Under the pieces are notes generated by a model that saw nothing but the letters and a program-made list of their open reading frames with translations, was not told where the DNA came from and made no database searches. From a virus, in the IMG/VR virus record IMGVR_UViG_3300028394_002328, positions 248,001 through 312,000 of that record: a DNA stretch of 64,000 bases. The stretch is one strand, 5' to 3'. A program made the translations under genes and the position numbers. Positions 3,143 through 60,913 of this stretch are shown here, one piece after another. The first letter of the stretch is position 1. Each line of letters starts with the position of its first letter.

Positions 3143-3345
3143 TGAAAGCATTACTTAAACAGTTAGTTATTATAGGAGTGTCTTTAGCACTGGGATATTG
3201 TATTTCGCAATTCTTGGTATCATCAGTGCATGAAAAAGTATATATCTGTGACTTAGCTGAGATAAGCATTGATTTCACCCCTGAAATGAGGAATGAATGC
3301 AGAAAATTAAGGTTGAATAAAAATGAAAATAGAACTAGCAAGTGA
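3142..3345 (+). CDS. Small single-span membrane protein
   Basis: 67 residues with one N-terminal transmembrane helix (about residues 7-28) and a basic C-terminal tail, translationally coupled to the SWIM gene (TAATG). It overlaps the next gene by 23 bp in another frame. Unknown function. Confidence 0.62.
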   Translation: MKALLKQLVIIGVSLALGYCISQFLVSSVHEKVYICDLAEISIDFTPEMRNECRKLRLNKNENRTSK

Positions 3346-4099
3346 CCTACATTTAGAATTTGGTCCATTAGAATTGCTTGGTGGTGATGTATTGATCCTT
3401 GCTGGTGATATTTGCGAATACCGTACCTTTAAAAAAAGAAAATCATTTGTTACTGATTTCTTTGAGAAAGAATGTGCCAAATATGCACAAGTGTTTATGG
3501 TTAGTGGTAACCATGAATCTTATCATCACAGACTAGATAAAACCCACGAAGACTTTAAAGCAATATTGCCCAGCAATGTAACACTATTAGAAAATGAAAC
3601 TGTAGACTATAACAATATAGTGTTCATGGGCGCTACTATGTGGACTGACCTTAATCAGAATGATCCTGTTACTGAGATGACAGTTAAGGACGGAATGAAT
3701 GATTATAGGGCGATACAAAACTATTATGCCGACAAAAATTTATACCATAAATTAACACCTGATTATACCTACAAATTACATAAAAACACTATAGACTATT
3801 TTAAAAATACATTGGCTGAATATCAGGATCGTGATGTAGTAGTTATTACTCATCATGCCCCATCATATCAAAGTATCCATGAAAGATATAGTCATAATCA
3901 TCATATGAGCGGTGCTTATGCAAGTGACCTAAGTGAATTTATATTGGATCATCCACAGATTAAGGTTTGGTGTCATGGTCATGTCCATGACTTTTTTGAA
4001 TACCGCATTGGTTCTACTAGAGTAGTTTGCAATCCTCGTGGTTATGTTGGCTATGAGGCTAGCACATACGATTTTCAATTATATGATTTGGATATTTAA
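3323..4099 (+). CDS. Calcineurin-like metallophosphoesterase
   Basis: 258 residues with the full metal-binding set of the family: SDLHLE (Asp8, His10), AGDI (Asp29), GNHE (Asn63, His64), THHAP and CHGHVHD. These proteins bind two metal ions and hydrolyse phosphomono- or phosphodiesters; the substrate is unknown. It is soluble, without a signal peptide. It overlaps the small membrane gene upstream and is followed 11 bp later by a MazG-like gene, so a nucleotide-metabolism role is plausible. It is distinct from the PlcP-like phosphoesterase at 56.2-57.0 kb. Confidence 0.92.
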   Translation: MKIELASDLHLEFGPLELLGGDVLILAGDICEYRTFKKRKSFVTDFFEKECAKYAQVFMVSGNHESYHHRLDKTHEDFKAILPSNVTLLENETVDYNNIVFMGATMWTDLNQNDPVTEMTVKDGMNDYRAIQNYYADKNLYHKLTPDYTYKLHKNTIDYFKNTLAEYQDRDVVVITHHAPSYQSIHERYSHNHHMSGAYASDLSEFILDHPQIKVWCHGHVHDFFEYRIGSTRVVCNPRGYVGYEASTYDFQLYDLDI

Positions 4100-49059: not shown

Positions 49060-49686
49060 ATGAGTGAGATTGTAATACCTTCAATTCGTGAAACATTGCG
49101 TATACAACGTTGGGACGATCATAGATATTATCATCATAGCAGAATTAATCAATTCTTACATTTGATTTCGGCTACTAGTTTCTTAGTAGCATATGTATAT
49201 TTGTTTGTCAACCCCGTAATCTCATCTTACATTGCTTGGTTTGTAGCTATGACTACACGCCAAATTGGGCATTTCTTTTTTGAACCCGATGGTTACGATG
49301 AATATAACAAGGCCACTTTTGAATACAAAGAAAAGATAAAAGTTGGATTCAATCTCAAACGTAAACGAGTGTTACTAGCATGTTGGGCAGCAGTACCTAT
49401 ACTAGCTTACTTTGATGCCGAACTTTTTAACTTTATCATGCCCGATGCTAGCCCAGATACACTGTTTAATCGTATTGGGTGGGGTTGGTTATGGTTGGGT
49501 GTAGCAGGTGTAGTATTTAGAATGATTCAACTTACTGCTATTGAAAGTCGCCGTACTGCTATCACTTGGTGTATTAAGATCATTACAGATCCATTCCACG
49601 ATGTCGTTATCTATCGTAAAAGTCCACTATATTTAATGCAGGGACAACTCATTGACCCCGACTTAAGACAAGACTACGAAGATTAA
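49060..49686 (+). CDS. Multi-span membrane protein, possibly Mpo1/DUF962-like
   Basis: 208 residues. Four hydrophobic segments and a His-rich start (DDHRYYHHSRINQFLHLI) and RQIGHFFFEP recall the Mpo1/DUF962 group, membrane Fe(II) dioxygenases that shorten 2-hydroxy fatty acids; the match is by motif feel and weak. The final residues DLRQDYED are duplicated 630 bp downstream (50291-50317). Confidence 0.6.
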   Translation: MSEIVIPSIRETLRIQRWDDHRYYHHSRINQFLHLISATSFLVAYVYLFVNPVISSYIAWFVAMTTRQIGHFFFEPDGYDEYNKATFEYKEKIKVGFNLKRKRVLLACWAAVPILAYFDAELFNFIMPDASPDTLFNRIGWGWLWLGVAGVVFRMIQLTAIESRRTAITWCIKIITDPFHDVVIYRKSPLYLMQGQLIDPDLRQDYED

Positions 49687-51324: not shown

Positions 51325-53706
51325 TTATCTCCTATACTGTTGTTCTATCATCTGTTGATGTAAACGGTCTGTTGATAACTGTCTTAACGCTCTAGCATTA
51401 TCAACTGGGGTTTGGTTCTTATAGATTTCTTTTGGCTCATACATTTTGCCATCTTTAAGCATCAAATTAGTGTAGTTACTATAGCCAATTGGAGTAGTAG
51501 CCATCTTATTAATATCCACATTACCTGCTAGTTCATTTGCTGCGACATTAGTTTTTACTTTTTGATTTGACTCCGTAGTAGAATTTGTAGTTACAATTGG
51601 TTTTGTTTCAACTACTTCATTAAGTGGGTCTGTGCGATTAGTCATAAAGCCTGCCGTACTGCTAACCTGTTCTACTTCTGTTTGTCTAGTAAAACTCACT
51701 TGCTGTGATGTGGTCTGCTGCTGTTCAACAGGTGCTGCTGCCATAGCATAAAACAAGGTGTTCTGCGGTTGTACATAGGCAAACGTCATAAAAGATTGTT
51801 GATCGGTTGAAGATTGTGAAAATACAGGTGTATTTGATGTAGTAATGATTGGAGTTACTGCGGTCGCCACTGTTGTATTAGCAGATTTGTTAGGTTGCGG
51901 GGGTAGACTACTTGTTACTGTAATTTGAACAGGTTGAGTTGATTGTACCCTGTTAAAATAAGTTTGAGCAGCAGATATCATGCTATATTGTGAATCATTA
52001 GCCGTTGTTGTAGTAGATGACACAGTAGTAACTACGGGTGTAGATACTCTCAATGGGGCGGTTTGAACAGTTGTTGCCACAGTGGCAGATTTATTTTCGT
52101 TATTAAGGGGTGCTGCATTAACCATTGATAGACCTGATTGCGCTTGGCTAACAGGCGCACTCGCAGTGGCAGTGTTGGTTTGTCTTTGAGTCTGTACTGA
52201 TGCATTGGACAGTGTTTGGCTCATTGTAACTGCGGCTGTAGCAACTGACACAGCCTGTTGTTGAGCCTTGTCACCGGCCGCTGTTGCTTCTGTTGTAGCC
52301 ATTTGTACTGCGGAATTTTGTATTGCCTGTTCACGCTGTTGATTCTTAGCAATTATACTTAATGCTGCTGCTACAGTTTTGGATTGAGGACTGCCTTTGG
52401 CTGCTGTAGTATTGCTTGTTTGCTGTGGTGTTGATTGAGCAATATTGGCAGTGGTAACAGCAGAAGTACTAGCTGTGGGTGGTTCCGCTATTGGAGTGGA
52501 TGTTGTATTACTGGTACTAAGTTTGGCAGCCATTGCTTGAGCAAAGCCACTACAATCGGGACTATATAGTGGGTTCTTAACACAAGGATCTGGTGTATAA
52601 ATCAGACTCATTGAATAATTGCCAATTGAAGAACCTATACCAGATGCCCCACCTGAAAGTCTAATATTACCAAGTGCGGATTGATTCATGCTACTTGATA
52701 GTAGTAGTTGTGAATTTACTGTTCCACTAGTGCCTTCACTATTGAAACTATGATTTCTTGAAATTATGGTTTGATTACTGCTATTGGTCATTGAGGCACT
52801 AGCACTGACATATGCTGGAGTGTTCATCACCCAACTACACCCATCTTGATTCCAAGCAGTACATCCAAAGAACCCTTGCCCCACTGTATAATCAAATTTA
52901 TAATTAAAGCCATGTACTGTAGCACCAAACCCAGCACTTTTTAATGCTGTGTTAATAGCAACTACTTGAGTCATTGAAGTAGATACAGCATCAGGATTTG
53001 GGGCAAGATTACCGGTAGTTATTATGTTACCAAATCCCGAGCAAATAGAACTGTAAGCAGGATTTAATTTACAAGGATCTACAGTGTATAGTAAATTAAA
53101 GCTATCAACATGTACTCTAGGCCCATAATATCCTGCCCAGTTGTTTTGATCCTTACCAGTAAAACTAACGGTTATACTACTAGCTGAGGCGATATCGTAG
53201 CGATTATTAAAAAATTGTGTACCCGAAAAAGTAGTAAAGTTTGGCAAGTTTTGATTATAGTCATAATTGAAACTTTCTACAATGTTACCAGTACTACCTT
53301 TTAAGGAAACGTTGCCGGTTAAAGTTCCTCTATTACCCTGATAATTATTGAGGTCATTATTGATTTGCCACTGATAACGATATCCACTAAGTTGGACTCC
53401 TGCTCCAGAATTTGCCAATGCCTGATTAATCGCAATTGTTTGACTTACTGTACGAGGAGCATTGCTAAAAATAATATTACCCGTCGAGGGATTATATGCG
53501 GGTGTAGGTCCACCACTCGTTCCACCTGCCTCACCAGTAACGGTATTGTTCCAAGGTAGTCCACCGCCCAAATTCAGTATATTGTTAGTACTGTTTAGGT
53601 TTAGACCTGTAACAGGGTCTATATTTTGACTATTAGTGGAAGCCGAATAACTTGAAAGCAACAATGCCCAACAAGCTACCGAGACCAATTTTCTTAAGGG
53701 TGTCAT
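51325..53706 (-). CDS. Large secreted or virion repeat protein (793 aa)
   Basis: Signal peptide (about 1-26, ending SASTNSQ). Two homologous units of about 180 residues follow (about 30-215 and 235-390), each starting with a strand-rich domain that includes IAINQAL/VAINTAL and ending with DPCKLNPAYSSICSGF or DPCVKNPLYSPDCSGF, where paired Cys may form a disulfide. Residues 395-790 are Thr/Ser/Gln/Ala rich and probably disordered or fibrous. The same DPC..NP.Y...C pattern is known to me from unannotated structural proteins of large aquatic phages. Start overlaps the next gene by 74 bp. Confidence 0.75.
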   Translation of the reverse strand: MTPLRKLVSVACWALLLSSYSASTNSQNIDPVTGLNLNSTNNILNLGGGLPWNNTVTGEAGGTSGGPTPAYNPSTGNIIFSNAPRTVSQTIAINQALANSGAGVQLSGYRYQWQINNDLNNYQGNRGTLTGNVSLKGSTGNIVESFNYDYNQNLPNFTTFSGTQFFNNRYDIASASSITVSFTGKDQNNWAGYYGPRVHVDSFNLLYTVDPCKLNPAYSSICSGFGNIITTGNLAPNPDAVSTSMTQVVAINTALKSAGFGATVHGFNYKFDYTVGQGFFGCTAWNQDGCSWVMNTPAYVSASASMTNSSNQTIISRNHSFNSEGTSGTVNSQLLLSSSMNQSALGNIRLSGGASGIGSSIGNYSMSLIYTPDPCVKNPLYSPDCSGFAQAMAAKLSTSNTTSTPIAEPPTASTSAVTTANIAQSTPQQTSNTTAAKGSPQSKTVAAALSIIAKNQQREQAIQNSAVQMATTEATAAGDKAQQQAVSVATAAVTMSQTLSNASVQTQRQTNTATASAPVSQAQSGLSMVNAAPLNNENKSATVATTVQTAPLRVSTPVVTTVSSTTTTANDSQYSMISAAQTYFNRVQSTQPVQITVTSSLPPQPNKSANTTVATAVTPIITTSNTPVFSQSSTDQQSFMTFAYVQPQNTLFYAMAAAPVEQQQTTSQQVSFTRQTEVEQVSSTAGFMTNRTDPLNEVVETKPIVTTNSTTESNQKVKTNVAANELAGNVDINKMATTPIGYSNYTNLMLKDGKMYEPKEIYKNQTPVDNARALRQLSTDRLHQQMIEQQYRR

Positions 53707-55159
53707 CTTCTTTTACCTCTACTGCCACTGGCATTTTTTCTGGGTTGGCTTCCCATGCTGCTCGTGCCGCATCTCCAATTTTACCTTCATACGGGCAAGG
53801 TGTGCCTGCGCTCCACATAGCATCAAACACACGGCGATCCTGACACATTGTGGCAACTGCTGCTACCTTCATACCCATATCGTAAAGTGTTTTGGCTAAC
53901 TTTAGTCTTTCGCAATTAACATCTCTAATAGTAGAACCACTACTAACACCAAAGATTTGTGTTTGAACAGCACCACTTACACCAGTGGTACATAGGTCAG
54001 CATTACCACCACTCATCATAGTAGGAGCGATTGCTGTAGGAGGGGGTTGTATAACTCTTTGTGTAATCTCTGACGAATTAATATTTCGGTTAGTCATGTC
54101 ACCAGTTTGTACATTTTGGTTGACATTGTTACTATTATTAGTATTACTACTAGTACTTGAACTTAAACTAGTGTTTACATTGTTATTGTTGTTGGTCATT
54201 GTACCTGAGTTAATGTTATTATTGGTATTAACATTACTGTTTGTGCTGGTGCTGTTATTAATATTTCTATTAGTCATGCTGCCACTAGTGATATTATTGT
54301 TAGTATTAACAGCAGTGCTAGTGCTTGCATTGTTATTGTTATAAGTCATTGTGCCAGTATTAACATTCACGTTTCTGTTAGTACTTGTGCTGGTACTAAC
54401 ATTATTATTGTTATTGGTCATCGTACCATAATTGTAATTGGTACTGTTATTAGTATTGACATTTCTGCTTGTACTAGTATTAACATTTTTATTGACATTA
54501 TTGCTAGTACTAGCGTTATTGTTATTGTATGTCATTGTACCGCTGTTGATATTGTTGTTGGTATTGACATTGTTACTAGTACTAGTGCTGGTACTGGCAT
54601 TATTGTTATTGTATGTCATTGTACCTGAATTAATATTGTTATTGGTATTGACACTGGTACTTGTGTTGGTATTGATATTACGGTTAGTCATATCACCACT
54701 ATTGACATTATTGTTGTTATATGTCATTGTACCACTATTAACATTGTTATTGGTATTAACACTAGTACTAACGTTATTATTGTTGTTAGTCATTGTTCCA
54801 GTGTTCACATTGTTATTGTTATAAGTAACAGTTCCGCTGTTAACATTGTTATTGTTATTGTTATAAGTAACAGTTCCGCTGTTGACATTGTTGTTGGTAA
54901 CCGTACCGCTTTGGATATTATTATTTGTATTAACGCTGGTATTGACGTTATTGCTGTTGCTGTTTACTGTACTAGTGCTCGTACTATTGCTGCTACTAGT
55001 ACTGGTATTTGTTGTATTGACACTGCTGGTACTATTACTAGTGCTATTAGTATCCACCAAAGTTTTAGAATCATAACTACCTTGATTAATTAAAGTTTGA
55101 CTATAGGCCGTACCCGTAAAAAAGACGATACTGGTAGATACCAATATTTTTTTAAGCAT
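53633..55159 (-). CDS. Secreted Asn/Thr/Ser repeat protein with conserved C-terminal domain
   Basis: 508 residues: signal peptide (MLKKILVSTSIVFFTGTAYS), then about 330 residues of degenerate repeats (NNNVNSGTMTYNNNN, NTSTSVNTNNN) and a C-terminal domain (about 400-508) with CERLKLAKTLYDMGMKVAAVATMCQD and GTPCPYEGKIG that I recognise from many large-phage proteins. The last 20 residues form a hydrophobic helix. The C-terminal codons overlap the signal-peptide codons of the next gene in another frame. Confidence 0.78.
   Translation of the reverse strand: MLKKILVSTSIVFFTGTAYSQTLINQGSYDSKTLVDTNSTSNSTSSVNTTNTSTSSSNSTSTSTVNSNSNNVNTSVNTNNNIQSGTVTNNNVNSGTVTYNNNNNNVNSGTVTYNNNNVNTGTMTNNNNNVSTSVNTNNNVNSGTMTYNNNNVNSGDMTNRNINTNTSTSVNTNNNINSGTMTYNNNNASTSTSTSNNVNTNNNINSGTMTYNNNNASTSNNVNKNVNTSTSRNVNTNNSTNYNYGTMTNNNNNVSTSTSTNRNVNVNTGTMTYNNNNASTSTAVNTNNNITSGSMTNRNINNSTSTNSNVNTNNNINSGTMTNNNNNVNTSLSSSTSSNTNNSNNVNQNVQTGDMTNRNINSSEITQRVIQPPPTAIAPTMMSGGNADLCTTGVSGAVQTQIFGVSSGSTIRDVNCERLKLAKTLYDMGMKVAAVATMCQDRRVFDAMWSAGTPCPYEGKIGDAARAAWEANPEKMPVAVEVKEDDTLKKIGLGSLLGIVAFKLFGFH
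54100..55030 (-). repeat. Coding minisatellite
   Basis: Tandem degenerate units based on AAYAAYAAYGTNAAYASNGGNACNATGACN, encoding NNNVNSGTMT-like repeats. The units vary in length and third bases, so they are not CRISPR-like. The antisense strand shows long Leu/Val-rich open frames that are artefacts. Confidence 0.85.
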
Positions 55160-55210: not shown

Positions 55211-56218
55211 TTAACATTTATCTACTAAGTTATCTCTAAATATACGCCAACACTCTTCCCAACTCCAACGTAGACTAGCTTCTTCTACACGAACACGATC
55301 TAATCGCAAACATTGGTCAATAGCAGTCTTTAAATCCTCATCCATATAACCTGTTAGTCCCTGATCTATAACATCTTTAGGTCCAGTTACTGGATATGCT
55401 GCTACTGGTGTGCCACAAGCCATAGCTTCAATCATTACTATACCAAACGTATCCCAATAACTAGGGAATACGAATACATCAGCATCGGCGTAATACTTAG
55501 CTAGTTCTGCCCCACGTTTTACTCCTACGAATTCAACATCAGGATATTCACGCTCCATACGACGGCGGCATGGACCATCACCTACGACTATTTTGGTAGC
55601 ACTTGGATAGTATAATCTACAAAAATCATCTAAGTTTTTTTCTTTGCTGACACGCCCTACATTTAACAATATGGGCTGTGATAGTTCTGTAGCAGTTCTA
55701 GTGCTGCTGCTAAATATGGTACGATCAACCCCGCGAGTCCAAGGCTTGATGTCGGTTCTAAATCCACGACTAGCCAAATCATCAACCATGCTTTGTGTAG
55801 TGGTCAGTACACGACCACTATGTTTATGAAACCAACGCAAGTAACGATAACTCCAGTCAGTGGGTATGCCTGCAATTTTGTTTATGGCTTCGGGGAAACG
55901 AGTATGGTAGCTAGTATTATAACGCCATCCCCAATAGTCCATCCAGCAACGGGCAGCAAAGCCCACTGGACCTTCTGTAGCAATGTGTATGTAGTCGGGA
56001 TTTACTTTTTCAATAATCCTGCCAATGCCCCAGGTCCAACTAAGTTTGATTTCACCATAGCCAGGACAGGGAATATTAACAAACTGCCGGGGATCAAGAT
56101 AAACAAAATCATAGCCATCCCGCTCAGCCAAAACTTCCAGGTTATGAAAGGTAGTAACAACACCATTAACCTGCGTTGGTTCATTGTCGGTTATGATTAA
56201 TACTGTCTTCATTTTCAC
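55211..56218 (-). CDS. Family 4 glycosyltransferase (Agt-like, glycolipid synthesis)
   Basis: 335 residues. TDNEPTQVNGVVTTFHNL at the N-terminus, HIATEGPVGFAARC and TSYHTRFPE, then the donor-site motif FPSYWDTFGIVMIEAMACGTPVAA (the ExxxxxxxE of GT4). This pattern is that of glycolipid synthases such as SqdX, MgtA and the Agt enzymes that replace phospholipids with glycolipids under phosphate starvation. Its start overlaps the stop of the metallophosphoesterase, the usual partner (plcP-agt). A second ATG two codons down is possible. Confidence 0.88.
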   Translation of the reverse strand: MKMKTVLIITDNEPTQVNGVVTTFHNLEVLAERDGYDFVYLDPRQFVNIPCPGYGEIKLSWTWGIGRIIEKVNPDYIHIATEGPVGFAARCWMDYWGWRYNTSYHTRFPEAINKIAGIPTDWSYRYLRWFHKHSGRVLTTTQSMVDDLASRGFRTDIKPWTRGVDRTIFSSSTRTATELSQPILLNVGRVSKEKNLDDFCRLYYPSATKIVVGDGPCRRRMEREYPDVEFVGVKRGAELAKYYADADVFVFPSYWDTFGIVMIEAMACGTPVAAYPVTGPKDVIDQGLTGYMDEDLKTAIDQCLRLDRVRVEEASLRWSWEECWRIFRDNLVDKC

Positions 56219-56966
56219 GCACCTCTGCCCATGTTACGATTTCCCAGCGACCATCCCAATGTTCAACTAGTGCTGTACAACTTTCACACCAGTCACCATC
56301 GTTCATGTAGATTACGCCGTTGATTTCTTTGATTTCAGCCTTATGTATATGCCCACAGATCACACCATCGTAGCCCTTCTTTTTGCAATAACCGGCTAGA
56401 TTTTGTTCAAATTGAAACATAAAGTCTACCGCTTTTTTGACCCGGTGCTTAAGGTACAAGCTAAGGCTCCAGTAGCCAAAACCCAAACGATGACGAATCC
56501 AATTGAATTTAGTATTGATATTGAGTACGCAGTCATATGCTTTGTCTCCTAATATGCTGAGCCAAGGGGCCAGCCTAGTAATACCATCAAATAAATCACC
56601 ATGAACTACAAGATACCTTTTTCCATCTATACCGGTGTGAATAGCCTGATTACAGATTTTAATACGACCAAAACTAACACCATATGGTATAAGTGGGCGT
56701 AAAAATTCATCATGATTGCCTGCCACATAAACTACTTGTGTTCCGCGTTTGGCATGACCTAATACACGGCGAATTACATTGGTATGACTTTGATGCCACT
56801 TTAGAGTGTTCTGTTTCATTTTCCACGCATCTATAATATCGCCTACTAGATACAACGTTTCGCAACTATTATGTTTTAAAAAGTTGTTTAGATAGTCTGC
56901 TTTACAGGCTTTAGTACCGAGGTGTACATCACTAATAGAGATTGTACGGTAAGTTGTTTGCGGCAT
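56181..56966 (-). CDS. PlcP/LpxH-like metallophosphoesterase
   Basis: 261 residues with the full motif set: ISDVHLGT (Asp13, His15), VGDIIDAW (Asp43), GNHDEF (Asn84, His85), VVHGDLFDG and CGHIHKA. It resembles LpxH, but paired with a GT4 gene it matches PlcP, a phospholipase C-like enzyme that removes phospholipid head groups in phosphate-starved marine and soil bacteria. A Pho-box promoter lies 23 bp upstream, which fits. Substrate should be tested; LpxH activity cannot be excluded. Confidence 0.88.
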   Translation of the reverse strand: MPQTTYRTISISDVHLGTKACKADYLNNFLKHNSCETLYLVGDIIDAWKMKQNTLKWHQSHTNVIRRVLGHAKRGTQVVYVAGNHDEFLRPLIPYGVSFGRIKICNQAIHTGIDGKRYLVVHGDLFDGITRLAPWLSILGDKAYDCVLNINTKFNWIRHRLGFGYWSLSLYLKHRVKKAVDFMFQFEQNLAGYCKKKGYDGVICGHIHKAEIKEINGVIYMNDGDWCESCTALVEHWDGRWEIVTWAEVRENEDSINHNRQ

Positions 56967-56971
56967 AATAC

Positions 56972-57006
56972 TATTTAATGTTTAATATATTACAAAGCTG
57001 TTACAA
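56972..57006 (-). promoter_or_regulatory. Pho-box promoter of plcP-like gene
   Basis: Direct repeats TTGTAAC and TTGTAAT with 11-bp periodicity (57006-57000 and 56995-56989), the geometry of PhoB half-sites, then 9 bp and ATTAAATA (56979-56972) as -10 or late motif, 5 bp before the ATG. Confidence 0.7.
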
Positions 57007-57010
57007 TCAT

Positions 57011-57034
57011 AAAAAAAGAGCCATATGGCCCTTT
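57011..57034 (-). terminator. Rho-independent terminator
   Basis: Minus-strand stem AAAGGGCC ATAT GGCTCTTT followed by T residues, just upstream of the Pho-box promoter. Confidence 0.85.
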
Positions 57035-57096
57035 AGTGCTGGTTACGAGCGTCCAGCGATCCCTCTATCTTGGGCCCGTTTTAAACAAACTACTAA

Positions 57097-57115
57097 ACCA
57101 GCGTTTTGCGCTGGT
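57097..57115 (-). terminator. Hairpin at the end of the coiled-coil gene
   Basis: ACCAGCG/CGCTGGT, 7-bp stem and 5-base loop, at the stop of the gene that ends at 57118. The T-tract is poor; the stronger terminator lies about 60 bp further. Confidence 0.6.
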
Positions 57116-57117
57116 AA

Positions 57118-57759
57118 TTACTTTCCCAATAAACTATCAACCTTCGCTTCAGCAACATTCAACCGATGCTCAATATCATCTAGTGCAGGATCTGCTGGAG
57201 CGGAAACTGCTTCAAATATTTGTTGATGAACTTCAGAATTAACTGCTTCTCCTGTTGCTGTTGAAACAATATGAGCTACCGCAGCGGCAATTTCTTCTGT
57301 ACCTGCAGTTGGTGCAGGCATTTCAGCAACTGCTGCTGTAATAGCGGCTGTAATTGCTTCAGGGTCTGTGACAACTTCAGGCTCTGCTGTAACAACTGCT
57401 AGTACCGCTGCTTTTACAATATCAGCAACTTCAGGGTTAACAATTGCATCTGCTTCGTGTTGAGCAGCTACTACATCGCCAACAATGCCTGCGGCTTCTG
57501 CATGGTCAGCACTTGGTGAAAGTGCTAGTACATCTTCAACAGAAACTGGTGCTTCATCAGCTACGGAATAAACAATGGCGTCAATATGGCTCTCAGTTTT
57601 TTCAGCGATCAAATGATCAACTTGAACTTCAACAACTGACAATCTGGTGTCTAGTTCTTCAATGCTTGTGGCATAATCTGTGTTAACTTCTGTGCCAGTT
57701 AGTGTTGCTAACTTAGCTTCTACTGCTACTAATCTTGCGGCTAAATCTTGTAATCTCAT
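57118..57759 (-). CDS. Acidic Ala/Val-rich coiled-coil protein (213 aa)
   Basis: Heptad coiled coils at both ends (LQDLAARLVAVEAKLATL at 2-20 and IEHRLNVAEAKVDSLLG at the end) flank an acidic Ala/Glu/Val-rich middle. The start at 57759 is set by the SD AAAGGAG. A GGTGAGTG/CACTCACC hairpin lies right upstream (57779-57803). It sits between phoX and the plcP-agt pair. Function unknown; perhaps a virion or scaffold protein. Confidence 0.75.
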   Translation of the reverse strand: MRLQDLAARLVAVEAKLATLTGTEVNTDYATSIEELDTRLSVVEVQVDHLIAEKTESHIDAIVYSVADEAPVSVEDVLALSPSADHAEAAGIVGDVVAAQHEADAIVNPEVADIVKAAVLAVVTAEPEVVTDPEAITAAITAAVAEMPAPTAGTEEIAAAVAHIVSTATGEAVNSEVHQQIFEAVSAPADPALDDIEHRLNVAEAKVDSLLGK

Positions 57760-57778
57760 GGGTTGCTCCTTTAGGTTA

Positions 57779-57803
57779 GGTGAGTGAATCATGTCCACTC
57801 ACC
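57779..57803 (-). promoter_or_regulatory. Hairpin before the ribosome binding site
   Basis: Perfect 8-bp stem GGTGAGTG/CACTCACC with 9-base loop, 10 bp from the SD of the gene starting at 57759. It may attenuate or stabilise the phoX-distal transcript. Confidence 0.55.
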
Positions 57804-57844
57804 CTTATTTAACTGCTACTATATTAAAGTATTATTACAAAATA

Positions 57845-59419
57845 TCAGAAACTCAATAATAGTAGCTGTCCACCTTCAATTAATTCAGCAGCATTAGCAC
57901 CAGTTGCTGCTTTGTGATTTTGATCAACCAATAAGAAGTAACGCTTGCCATCAGTACGACCTAAGATACTGGTGATTTCAATGATACCACTGGATTCTTC
58001 GTCATTGGTCTCAGTTCCAACAACACCTGTGTAATAATCACCAAACAGCTTCTCATCATGTTGAGCAAGTAGTGTTAGTGCCTTGGTAACAGGATTGTAT
58101 CTCCAAATCTTACCATTGTGATTGTTACCACCCACATCTTCTTGTAGAATGATTGTGCCATCGCTAGCAACAGTCATGTTGTCAAACATCTGTGTGCCAT
58201 GAACACGACCGGCAACAGTAACTGTTTCAGTACCATCGAGCACCATTTCAAGGATACCACCCGATTCAGGACGGGTTAAATCAGTAAATGTCATGCTCCA
58301 AAGGCGTGTGCGACCAACTTGAGCAGTATTAGTAATACTGGTATTGATCTTGCCCCCGGTGTTGTCTTTAGCAGCATCTACTGTGTTGGTTGTTACAAAG
58401 TAGTAGCGGTTCTTGTTAACTGTATCCCAAGCACCATCTTCTGGACGCAAGAAACTTGTACCAGCAACACCAGTTACAGGAACATTGGGAACAAAACTAA
58501 ATGTAGCAGTCTTGTTGACTAGTCCTAAACCAGCATCAGTAGCAGTGGTTTCATTAGCAGCAACACCACCAACATTGACCACAGCACGATACAGCGTACC
58601 ATTGGTTAGGCCTGCTTTATCAACTTCAGTAGCACCAGTCTTGTTCTTAGTGCCGACATACATATAAACACCATTGCTGCCACTGTCGCTATTGGCCATA
58701 ACAATGGTCTTATCGCCGCTGTTAGGATGTGCGATTAGATTTTCCCAGCCTACACCAAATGTGGTAAATCCACCAAAGTGTGGGAGAATGTATGCTTTGC
58801 CTTTGTCTGCTCCACTAGCCACAATAGCAACACCCCGACCCATTGTAACAGTACCGTTAGCGGTTTCTTCACCAGTCATAAACATTTTAACCGAAGAACC
58901 ATTGCCTGTTGCTGAGTTGAAGAAAGCGCCGGCTGCTGGTAGATCGGCTGAACAGAAACGCTGAAATGCTACAGCAGTTTGCTCGGCCCAAGCACCATTG
59001 ACCTGTGCATAAACTTTTTTCATTAGGTCACTACCGCTCTTGACCTGTAGAGTAGTTTTATCAATAACCCACTCACTAACAAAAGCACCAATACCACCAT
59101 GAGCACGGGCAATACCAACAGTGTTGGCCAGTTCATGAGCCATTAGCACGGTGAATGTGTTGTCACCATTGTCGTAAGCACCTAGCCCATCCGGGATACC
59201 TACCATGCGATAAGTGCCAACAGCGTCACCAACGGTTAAGATACTGGCAACTTTTACGCTGCTGTCAATTGGTGTGATATAAGGATCTGCTGAACTACTA
59301 GTTGCTTTGCCTGATGTAAAACCAGTAACTTCTTTGGGTGCTGCTACAGTGGTGTCATCGCTACCACATGCTGTTAATAGAGCCGTTGCTACGGCTACTG
59401 CTAGAACGGTATATTTCAT
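57845..59419 (-). CDS. phoX: PhoX-like alkaline phosphatase (DUF839), lipoprotein
   Basis: 524 residues. The N-terminus has a lipobox (LLTACGSD, Cys18), so it would be anchored to a membrane facing the periplasm. DGLGAYDNGDNTFTVLMAHE, SFLRPEDGAWD and FDNMTVASDGTIILQEDVGGNNHNGKIWRY match the PhoX/DUF839 fold, Ca/Fe-dependent phosphatases that free phosphate from organic esters. It follows pstS by 25 bp with SD AAAGGAG, so both should be expressed from the Pho-box promoter. Confidence 0.88.
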   Translation of the reverse strand: MKYTVLAVAVATALLTACGSDDTTVAAPKEVTGFTSGKATSSSADPYITPIDSSVKVASILTVGDAVGTYRMVGIPDGLGAYDNGDNTFTVLMAHELANTVGIARAHGGIGAFVSEWVIDKTTLQVKSGSDLMKKVYAQVNGAWAEQTAVAFQRFCSADLPAAGAFFNSATGNGSSVKMFMTGEETANGTVTMGRGVAIVASGADKGKAYILPHFGGFTTFGVGWENLIAHPNSGDKTIVMANSDSGSNGVYMYVGTKNKTGATEVDKAGLTNGTLYRAVVNVGGVAANETTATDAGLGLVNKTATFSFVPNVPVTGVAGTSFLRPEDGAWDTVNKNRYYFVTTNTVDAAKDNTGGKINTSITNTAQVGRTRLWSMTFTDLTRPESGGILEMVLDGTETVTVAGRVHGTQMFDNMTVASDGTIILQEDVGGNNHNGKIWRYNPVTKALTLLAQHDEKLFGDYYTGVVGTETNDEESSGIIEITSILGRTDGKRYFLLVDQNHKAATGANAAELIEGGQLLLLSF

Positions 59420-59444
59420 TTTAAAACTCCTTTTGTATGTTTGT

Positions 59445-60425
59445 TTATTTGACTAACTTTGCCCAATCGGCACGAACTTGATCCTTAACCTTTTGGGGTA
59501 ATGGAACATAATCTAGGTCTGTAGCGTCCTTGTCACCCTTTGTATAGACCCAATCAAAAAATTTGGTAACTTGTTTTGTTCGCTCTCCAGTAGGATATAT
59601 GAGAATAAATGTAGCGGCAGTAATAGGCCATCCATCTAAATCATTGAGATTAACTGCCATGTTGGGCACTGACCAGTCAGCAGTCTTGGCACTTTCAGCA
59701 AATGTTAAGTCATCTGGTTGAACTACAGCACCTTTGCGGTTCTTCATGGCCACATGAGTTAGTTTGCTCTGTTTAGCAAATGCGTACTCAACATAACCAA
59801 TTGATCCTGCCAGTTGTTGAACGTTGGCAGCAACACCAGCATTGCCCTTACCTGCTGACAAGTTTGTGGGCTTCCAAGTAACTGTTTTACCCGTACCGGT
59901 ACCTGCTTTAAAATCAGGATTTACTTTGCTTAAGTAATCAGTAAACACAGCAGTTGTACCTGATCCATCAGCACGAACCACTACGTTGATAGCAGCATCA
60001 GGTAATGCTAGACTTGGATTGAGTTTTGTAATAGCAGCATCGTTCCACTTGCTGATTTTACCTTGATAAATGTCGGCTAGTGTCTTGCCATCAAGAATCA
60101 TTTTACCTGGCTCAATACCTTTGATATTGATTACAGCAACAACTCCACCGATAACTGATGGGAATTGATATAGCCCAACTTCTTTTAATTTATTGTCTGG
60201 TGTAGGATCATCACTTGCACCAAAATCTACGGTTTTAGCAATGATTTGAGCAACACCACCGCCACTTCCGATTGGATTGTAGTTAACAGTAGTACCAGTT
60301 TCTTTGTTGTAGGCTGCTGCCCATTTTGAATAAATAGGAGCCGGGAAAGTTGCCCCGGCTCCAGTAATCTGTGCTTGTGCAGCAAATGCGGCTGCGGCTA
60401 ATAGAATTCCAACAATTTTCTTCAT
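59445..60425 (-). CDS. pstS: Phosphate ABC transporter substrate-binding protein PstS
   Basis: 326 residues. A signal peptide (1-19, AQAQ) precedes ITGAGATFPAPIYSKWA, the phosphate-binding NYNPIGSGGGVAQI, FGASDDP and VVRADGSGTTAVFTDYLS, all diagnostic of PstS. It binds phosphate in the periplasm and delivers it to the host PstCAB, which are not encoded here. Cyanophages and pelagiphages also carry pstS, so a PhoB-controlled phage copy is established practice. The Pho box 56 bp upstream supports control by the host PhoBR. Confidence 0.97.
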   Translation of the reverse strand: MKKIVGILLAAAAFAAQAQITGAGATFPAPIYSKWAAAYNKETGTTVNYNPIGSGGGVAQIIAKTVDFGASDDPTPDNKLKEVGLYQFPSVIGGVVAVINIKGIEPGKMILDGKTLADIYQGKISKWNDAAITKLNPSLALPDAAINVVVRADGSGTTAVFTDYLSKVNPDFKAGTGTGKTVTWKPTNLSAGKGNAGVAANVQQLAGSIGYVEYAFAKQSKLTHVAMKNRKGAVVQPDDLTFAESAKTADWSVPNMAVNLNDLDGWPITAATFILIYPTGERTKQVTKFFDWVYTKGDKDATDLDYVPLPQKVKDQVRADWAKLVK

Positions 60426-60463
60426 TTGATTTCCTTTAATAATATGTGCTCTTGCACAATTAT

Positions 60464-60498
60464 TATTTAATAATAATTATGTTACAGGAATATTACAA
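60464..60498 (-). promoter_or_regulatory. Pho-box promoter of pstS-phoX
   Basis: Direct repeats TTGTAAT and CTGTAAC with 11-bp periodicity (60498-60492 and 60487-60481), then 9 bp and ATTAAATA (60471-60464). Same geometry as the promoter at 56972-57006. Confidence 0.72.
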
Positions 60499-60529: not shown

Positions 60530-60913
60530 TTATTGAACAGTCCGTTTTGATTTGTAATCTTCTATTGCCGATTTAATCGCATCTTCTGCTAAGATTGAGC
60601 AGTGGATTTTGACTGGCGGGAGAGCGAGTTCTTCCGCAATCTGTGTGTTTCTAATTGTTGCTGCCTCGTCGAGGGTTTTGCCTTTAACCCACTCTGTGAC
60701 AAGACTTGAGCTAGCAATCGCTGACCCGCACCCATACGTTTTAAATCTAGCATCTTCTATTACTCCATTCTCATTTACTTTAATTTGAAGTTTCATCACA
60801 TCTCCGCATGCCGGGGCTCCGACTAGTCCGGTGCCTATTGTATCGTCAATTTCAAATTTTCCAACATTGCGTGGGTTTTCATAATGATCAACTACTTGAG
60901 GTGAATAAGCCAT
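60530..60913 (-). CDS. iscU: Iron-sulfur cluster scaffold IscU
   Basis: 127 residues, full IscU length. Cluster ligands Cys36 (ACGDVM with Asp38), Cys62 (YGCGSA) and Cys105 (HCSILAED with His104) are all present, and so is the LPPVK motif (residues 98-102) that the host HscA chaperone recognises. The phage therefore has a functional-looking scaffold but no cysteine desulfurase (IscS) in the window, so host IscS and HscAB would be used. SD GGAGAAC. Confidence 0.96.
   Translation of the reverse strand: MAYSPQVVDHYENPRNVGKFEIDDTIGTGLVGAPACGDVMKLQIKVNENGVIEDARFKTYGCGSAIASSSLVTEWVKGKTLDEAATIRNTQIAEELALPPVKIHCSILAEDAIKSAIEDYKSKRTVQ

Follow-up and report, generated by a model that had tools for sequence, protein, structure and literature searches.

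A plcP–agt-like gene pair linked to pstS and Pho-box-like sites in a T4-like jumbo phage: a predicted phosphate-starvation module

The locus and its phage

The window, as the whole analysed stretch of 64,000 nucleotides is called here, comprises bases 248001–312000 of a 335,035-base IMG/VR virus record. Genes for gp23, the major capsid protein of T4-type phages (E 1.8e-97), and for a large terminase (8e-20) are present in the record, and the window's phage is a T4-like jumbo phage with a genome of 335 kb; 18 tRNA genes are located within the window. The four ORFs named in the original prediction (pstS, a PhoX-like gene, a metallophosphoesterase gene and a GT4 glycosyltransferase gene) all lie on the minus strand. 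An additional 226-aa ORF (57798–57118), absent from that prediction, separates the pstS/PhoX-like pair from the phosphoesterase/GT4 pair. The features of the module, in window coordinates, are as follows:

60481–60498, minus strand: Pho-box-like site TTGTAATATTCCTGTAAC, 72 bp before pstS (pattern match)
59445–60425, minus strand: pstS, periplasmic phosphate-binding protein, 326 aa (NF008171, TIGR00975, PHROG 5385)
57845–59419, minus strand: divergent PhoX-like lipoprotein, 524 aa (bacterial homologues; distant Pfam PhoX matches in the family)
57823–57840, minus strand: Pho-box-like site TTGTAATAATACTTTAAT, 42 bp before the 226-aa gene (pattern match)
57118–57798, minus strand: 226-aa gene with no assigned function (homologues beside a PlcP gene in several phages)
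57015–57034, minus strand: terminator-like hairpin with a T run after it, separating the 226-aa gene from plcP (consensus match only)
56989–57006, minus strand: Pho-box-like site TTGTAACAGCTTTGTAAT, 40 bp before plcP (pattern match)
56181–56966, minus strand: plcP-like metallophosphoesterase, 261 aa, probable intracellular phospholipase C (tree, GNHDE motif, Pfam Metallophos)
55211–56218, minus strand: agt-like GT4 glycosyltransferase, 335 aa, overlapping plcP (tree with Agt1, DTFG signature)

The PhoX-like ORF starts 25 bp past the end of pstS. The GT4 gene starts at 56218 (GTG) or 56212 (ATG) and ends at 55211, overlapping the phosphoesterase gene by 38 or 32 nt. The same gene order is found in another viral locus, L003.

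Directly upstream of pstS, the window contains a gene for the iron–sulphur scaffold IscU (60530–60913, minus strand; 218 bits, cutoff 192), which is kept in close relatives. Two long low-complexity proteins are encoded just downstream of the GT4 gene (53633–55159 and 51325–53706, minus strand); they are rich in Asn, Ser and Thr, contain repeated NNNVNSGTMTYNN units and vary among close relatives (46–90% identity). An Mpo1-like protein of the 2-hydroxy fatty acid dioxygenase family (49060–49686, plus strand; E 8.8e-5, just below the cutoff) is possibly the product of a further lipid gene; by eye, L175 and three other loci encode a similar protein close to the pair. A second calcineurin-like phosphoesterase (3323–4099, plus strand; weak CpdA match) is unrelated to that of the module.

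PstS homologues were found in 131 of 200 genomes from the order of Zwartia (Burkholderiales), at up to 59% identity, and in 15 of 96 genomes from the order of Pseudomonas, at up to 54%. These frequencies and identities hint at a host closer to the former order than to the latter.

Assignment of the encoded proteins

PstS passes the curated equivalog cutoffs by a wide margin, scoring 404.9 bits against NF008171 (cutoff 339) and 338.2 bits against TIGR00975 (cutoff 205), and it also matches PHROG 5385. The neighbouring protein is more divergent. Its bacterial homologues are 36–48% identical to it, and a lipoprotein-like signal (LTAC) is present at its N-terminal start. Pfam PhoX is matched by three of seven aligned members of its family (best 2.6e-8); the window protein itself matched nothing in Pfam or PDB at a threshold as loose as E = 10, and a profile search of solved structures gave no match either. 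Its single-sequence AlphaFold model has a pLDDT of 33. The protein may be described as divergent PhoX-like, a distant assignment and the weakest label of the module.

The phosphoesterase was assigned using a maximum-likelihood tree of 105 proteins, in which LpxH was represented from eight bacterial genomes. One reference gene was taken from a plasmid collection, where it lies on a 3.7-Mb S. meliloti record beside genes for an acyl-homoserine-lactone synthase and a LuxR-type regulator; presumably it is SMc00171, the original PlcP, in its sinI/sinR neighbourhood. The second reference, a P. aeruginosa segment from the same collection, contains PlcP (PA3219) and Agt1 (PA3218), its gene order being what we take to be PA3217–PA3225. 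PA3219 and PA3218 have been tested genetically (PMC8528852). Placement among the LpxH and PlcP clades was a check set beforehand, and the window protein groups with characterised PlcP, apart from LpxH, with support of 100/100; clustering with LpxH, the outcome named in advance as contrary to the prediction, did not occur. Within the tree it belongs to a clade of 26 viral proteins (99/86). It is 51.6% identical to P. aeruginosa PlcP and 46.1% identical to S. meliloti PlcP, the two bacterial proteins being 44.4% identical to each other. The metal-binding residues are invariant; the third metal motif is GNHDE, as in PlcP, and that of LpxH is GNRDF. These features point to a PlcP-like protein, a probable intracellular phospholipase C.

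An identity as LpxH was rejected on the tree separation and the GNHDE motif. The idea behind it is that the phosphoesterase is of the LpxH type and the GT4 acts on LPS, the two forming a surface-modification pair. The best named matches are indeed NCBIfam LpxH models, and the database name of P. aeruginosa PlcP itself is UDP-2,3-diacylglucosamine diphosphatase, which accounts for such phage genes passing as lipid A genes. The phage protein scores far under the LpxH cutoffs (44 bits against 134; 33.4 bits against 190.35) and has no GNRD motif. Since the GT4 also falls in the Agt1 group and the gene sits with pstS, this explanation is largely refuted and very improbable. PlcP relatives inside the viral clade were also found on two bacterial MAG contigs, L083 and L086 (Hyphomonas, Hellea); either phage DNA was binned into a MAG, or these bacteria gave the gene to a phage or received it from one.

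Between the phage GT4 and P. aeruginosa Agt1, identity is 43%. A tree of 66 GT4s places all the viral proteins in one clade (100/99), which lies within a group comprising Agt1 and the glycosyltransferases adjoining bacterial plcP (96/98); Agt2, recognised by its plcR neighbour, falls outside this group. The signature DTFG...EA is common to the phage GT4 and the glycosyltransferases of the Agt1 group; Agt2 has ETFG and Agt1 itself DTYG. By its tree position and its place next to plcP, the phage GT4 is Agt1-like, with a predicted diacylglycerol glycosyltransferase activity. The two overlapping minus-strand genes bear out the proposed pairing of a PlcP-like metallophosphoesterase with a GT4. Of 52 dereplicated loci, 9 (L214, L209, L213, L168 and five others) have a gene resembling UDP-glucose/GDP-mannose dehydrogenase no more than about 7 kb from the pair, and such a gene is also present elsewhere in the window's own phage (G000:C1:48474-48824); it could supply UDP-glucuronate for a glucuronosyl lipid.

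Recurrence, selection and Pho-box-like sites

A scan of IMG/VR viral contigs with the GT4 alone yielded 137 relatives, of which 80 were kept for analysis. A PlcP-like gene is located upstream on the same strand in all 71 loci with enough upstream sequence; in 64 of them the distance to the GT4 gene is 400 bp or less, and many pairs overlap by 19–37 nt. On the sequence available for the 80 loci, pstS is also present in 23. The expected recurrence of the gene set in related viral contigs was therefore observed for the pair, often with pstS; the PhoX-like protein occurs in only three other viral contigs. Ten loci form a group in which a terminase gene comes after the pair and, in the members examined, genes for a portal and a protease–capsid fusion follow as well. 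This group is a lineage distinct from the T4-like one, and the pair is thus carried by at least two phage lineages. Using the same route, a homologous glycosyltransferase was found beside plcP in 62 of 80 bacterial loci.

Pairing is not obligatory, because many phages carry a PlcP-like gene with no adjacent GT4: a scan with the phosphoesterase showed a GT4 alongside none of 62 relatives of about 50% identity. Homologues of the 226-aa gene (55–64%) are located next to a PlcP gene in L013, L212, L231 and L240. Such homologues stand beside a PlcP gene in several distinct phages, some of which have no GT4 (L013, L014, L016, L028). Only five of 50,697 annotated phage records contain a PlcP relative. 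None of the 50,697 has a GT4 relative exceeding about 40% identity across a substantial stretch, or a DNA match to the plcP–GT4 pair.

Comparison of close relatives gave dN/dS values of 0.04–0.11 for all four genes. This is strong purifying selection and indicates that the genes are in use; together with the pairing in every testable viral GT4 locus, it shows that the arrangement is not due to chance.

A strict scan for the E. coli Pho box gave a weak result, the best match before pstS being TTGTAATATTCCTGTAAC, and a relaxed Pho-box-like pattern, YTGTMAYNNNNYTKTMAY, was used instead, with permutation and spacer controls. The pattern has four matches in the whole 335-kb record, three of which, on the right strand, closely precede pstS, the 226-aa gene and plcP; the backwards control gave none. 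Upstream of the module genes, these sites have the Pho-box architecture of two 7-bp half-sites forming an 11-bp direct repeat. The window site before pstS is not independent evidence because the pattern was relaxed after that first site had been seen; the other sites are independent. In the dereplicated upstream regions of relatives, the pattern was found 36–87 bp before the start in 10 of 20 pstS genes, 12 of 76 plcP genes and none of 51 GT4 genes. Overall, 23 of 102 dereplicated upstream regions contain it, a number never reached in 500 half-site permutations (mean 0.1), and other spacers from 0 to 12 gave no matches in these regions, so that only the PhoB spacing does. None of 77 bacterial plcP upstream regions matched the AT-rich YTGTMAYNNNNYTKTMAY variant. 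The Pho-box-like sites tie the units to phosphate starvation; in the simplest reading, they are candidate PhoB sites, through which PhoB would control three units. In cyanophages, control of phage genes by the host's PhoB is established (PMC10976474).

A predicted route from host membrane to phage DNA

It is quite likely that the locus is a phage-borne phosphate-starvation module that mines the host membrane by means of PlcP and Agt, its three units lying behind Pho-box-like sites. Phylogeny and motifs show what the genes are, their pairing is conserved, they are under purifying selection and a promoter motif is shared; the activity of the enzymes, the binding of PhoB, the sugar donor, the flow of phosphate and the gain for the phage are inferred. 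At low phosphate, host PhoB would activate the units, namely pstS with the PhoX-like gene, the 226-aa gene, and the overlapping plcP–agt. PstS would sustain phosphate uptake. PlcP would strip phosphorylated head groups from host phospholipids, yielding diacylglycerol and a phospho-alcohol; Agt would add a sugar, most likely glucose, to the diacylglycerol, giving a phosphorus-free glycolipid, and membrane mass would be kept. The overlap of plcP and agt would fit a need to stop diacylglycerol from building up. The phospho-alcohols would then be dephosphorylated and their phosphate directed into phage DNA synthesis. The activities of the bacterial homologues of PlcP and Agt are known by genetics (PMC4796936, PMC8528852), and the bacterial pathway steps that underlie the expected phage steps have been described (PMC4796936, PMC8528852, PMC3972451). 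Even for the bacterial pathway, no phosphatase has been identified that would release phosphate from the head group (PMC3972451), which counts against the module reading. The original prediction of such a module is largely supported and was right on its main point.

PlcP and Agt might also work as proposed and benefit the phage through the changed membrane, the glycolipids altering charge and envelope proteins and so hindering superinfection or helping replication when the cell is starved. The membrane proteins of P. aeruginosa change on lipid remodelling, and effects on phage receptors are expected (PMC9804370); such a benefit would not require conversion of the entire lipid pool. However, the neighbouring pstS and the Pho-box-like sites point to phosphate as the selective factor, and the membrane change can be a side benefit, so that this account is rather unlikely as the main one. 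A far smaller chance attaches to host genes misplaced on a viral contig, or to a recent unused capture. Host DNA can occur in viral contigs, and many of the contigs used here are fragments. Nevertheless, gp23 and terminase are encoded on the same record, the viral GT4s form a single clade (100/99), the window PlcP is in an all-viral clade (99/86), gene order is shared with L003, in another lineage the pair adjoins genes for the phage head, and purifying selection acts on all four genes. For this lineage, the explanation is refuted unless several independent assemblies share one chimera.

The membrane-mining module has its closest likeness in the PlcP–Agt remodelling of phosphate-starved bacteria (S. 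meliloti, Phaeobacter, SAR11, Agrobacterium and P. aeruginosa PA3219–PA3218), whose homologous genes have the same order and overlap or lie close together. The P. aeruginosa genes are under Pho-box control (PMC8528852), and the phage pair stands behind a Pho-box-like site. Unlike its bacterial counterparts, the phage pair is located on genomes of the lytic type, forms viral clades of its own, is linked to a phage pstS and has a predicted activity. Cyanophages likewise possess pstS and other genes with host-type Pho boxes under host PhoBR (PMC10976474); however, their Pho genes serve uptake or nucleotide recycling, whereas the phosphate source proposed here is membrane lipid and the box is of the proteobacterial type. 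The cultured T4-like Pelagibacter phage Mosig EXVC030M encodes a PlcP relative (Mosig_00120, 48.6% identity) beside a phosphate ABC transporter gene (pstS). It differs in the divergent orientation of these genes, in having no Agt alongside and in the record name, UDP-2,3-diacylglucosamine hydrolase; the Mosig protein falls near the group of about 50% identity that has no GT4.

No report of phage plcP or agt was found in the open-access literature, to which the search was confined. Judged against that literature, a known bacterial pathway is found in a new carrier; what is new is how widely the plcP–agt pair is spread among viral genomes, that at least two phage lineages carry it, and that Pho-box-like sites accompany the module. 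Genes named 'lpxH' have been listed among viral metabolic genes, e.g., in Lake Baikal viral transcripts (PMC9611531), and some of these may be plcP.

We estimate that about 670,000 phosphorus atoms go into a genome of 335 kb. The phospholipids of a typical Gram-negative cell number of the order of ten million, a pool that could suffice for roughly ten or more genomes. The phage phosphate genes described to date have roles in uptake or in the recycling of nucleotides, and membrane mining would be a different source of phosphate. More tentatively, several phage lineages might carry a long-inherited, PhoB-controlled phospholipid-to-glycolipid pathway that they impose even on hosts without it; the membrane would then be a phosphate store for viral DNA, and infected cells would be a source of glycolipids in phosphate-poor water. 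The effects of viruses on membrane lipids in low-phosphate waters thus become directly testable.
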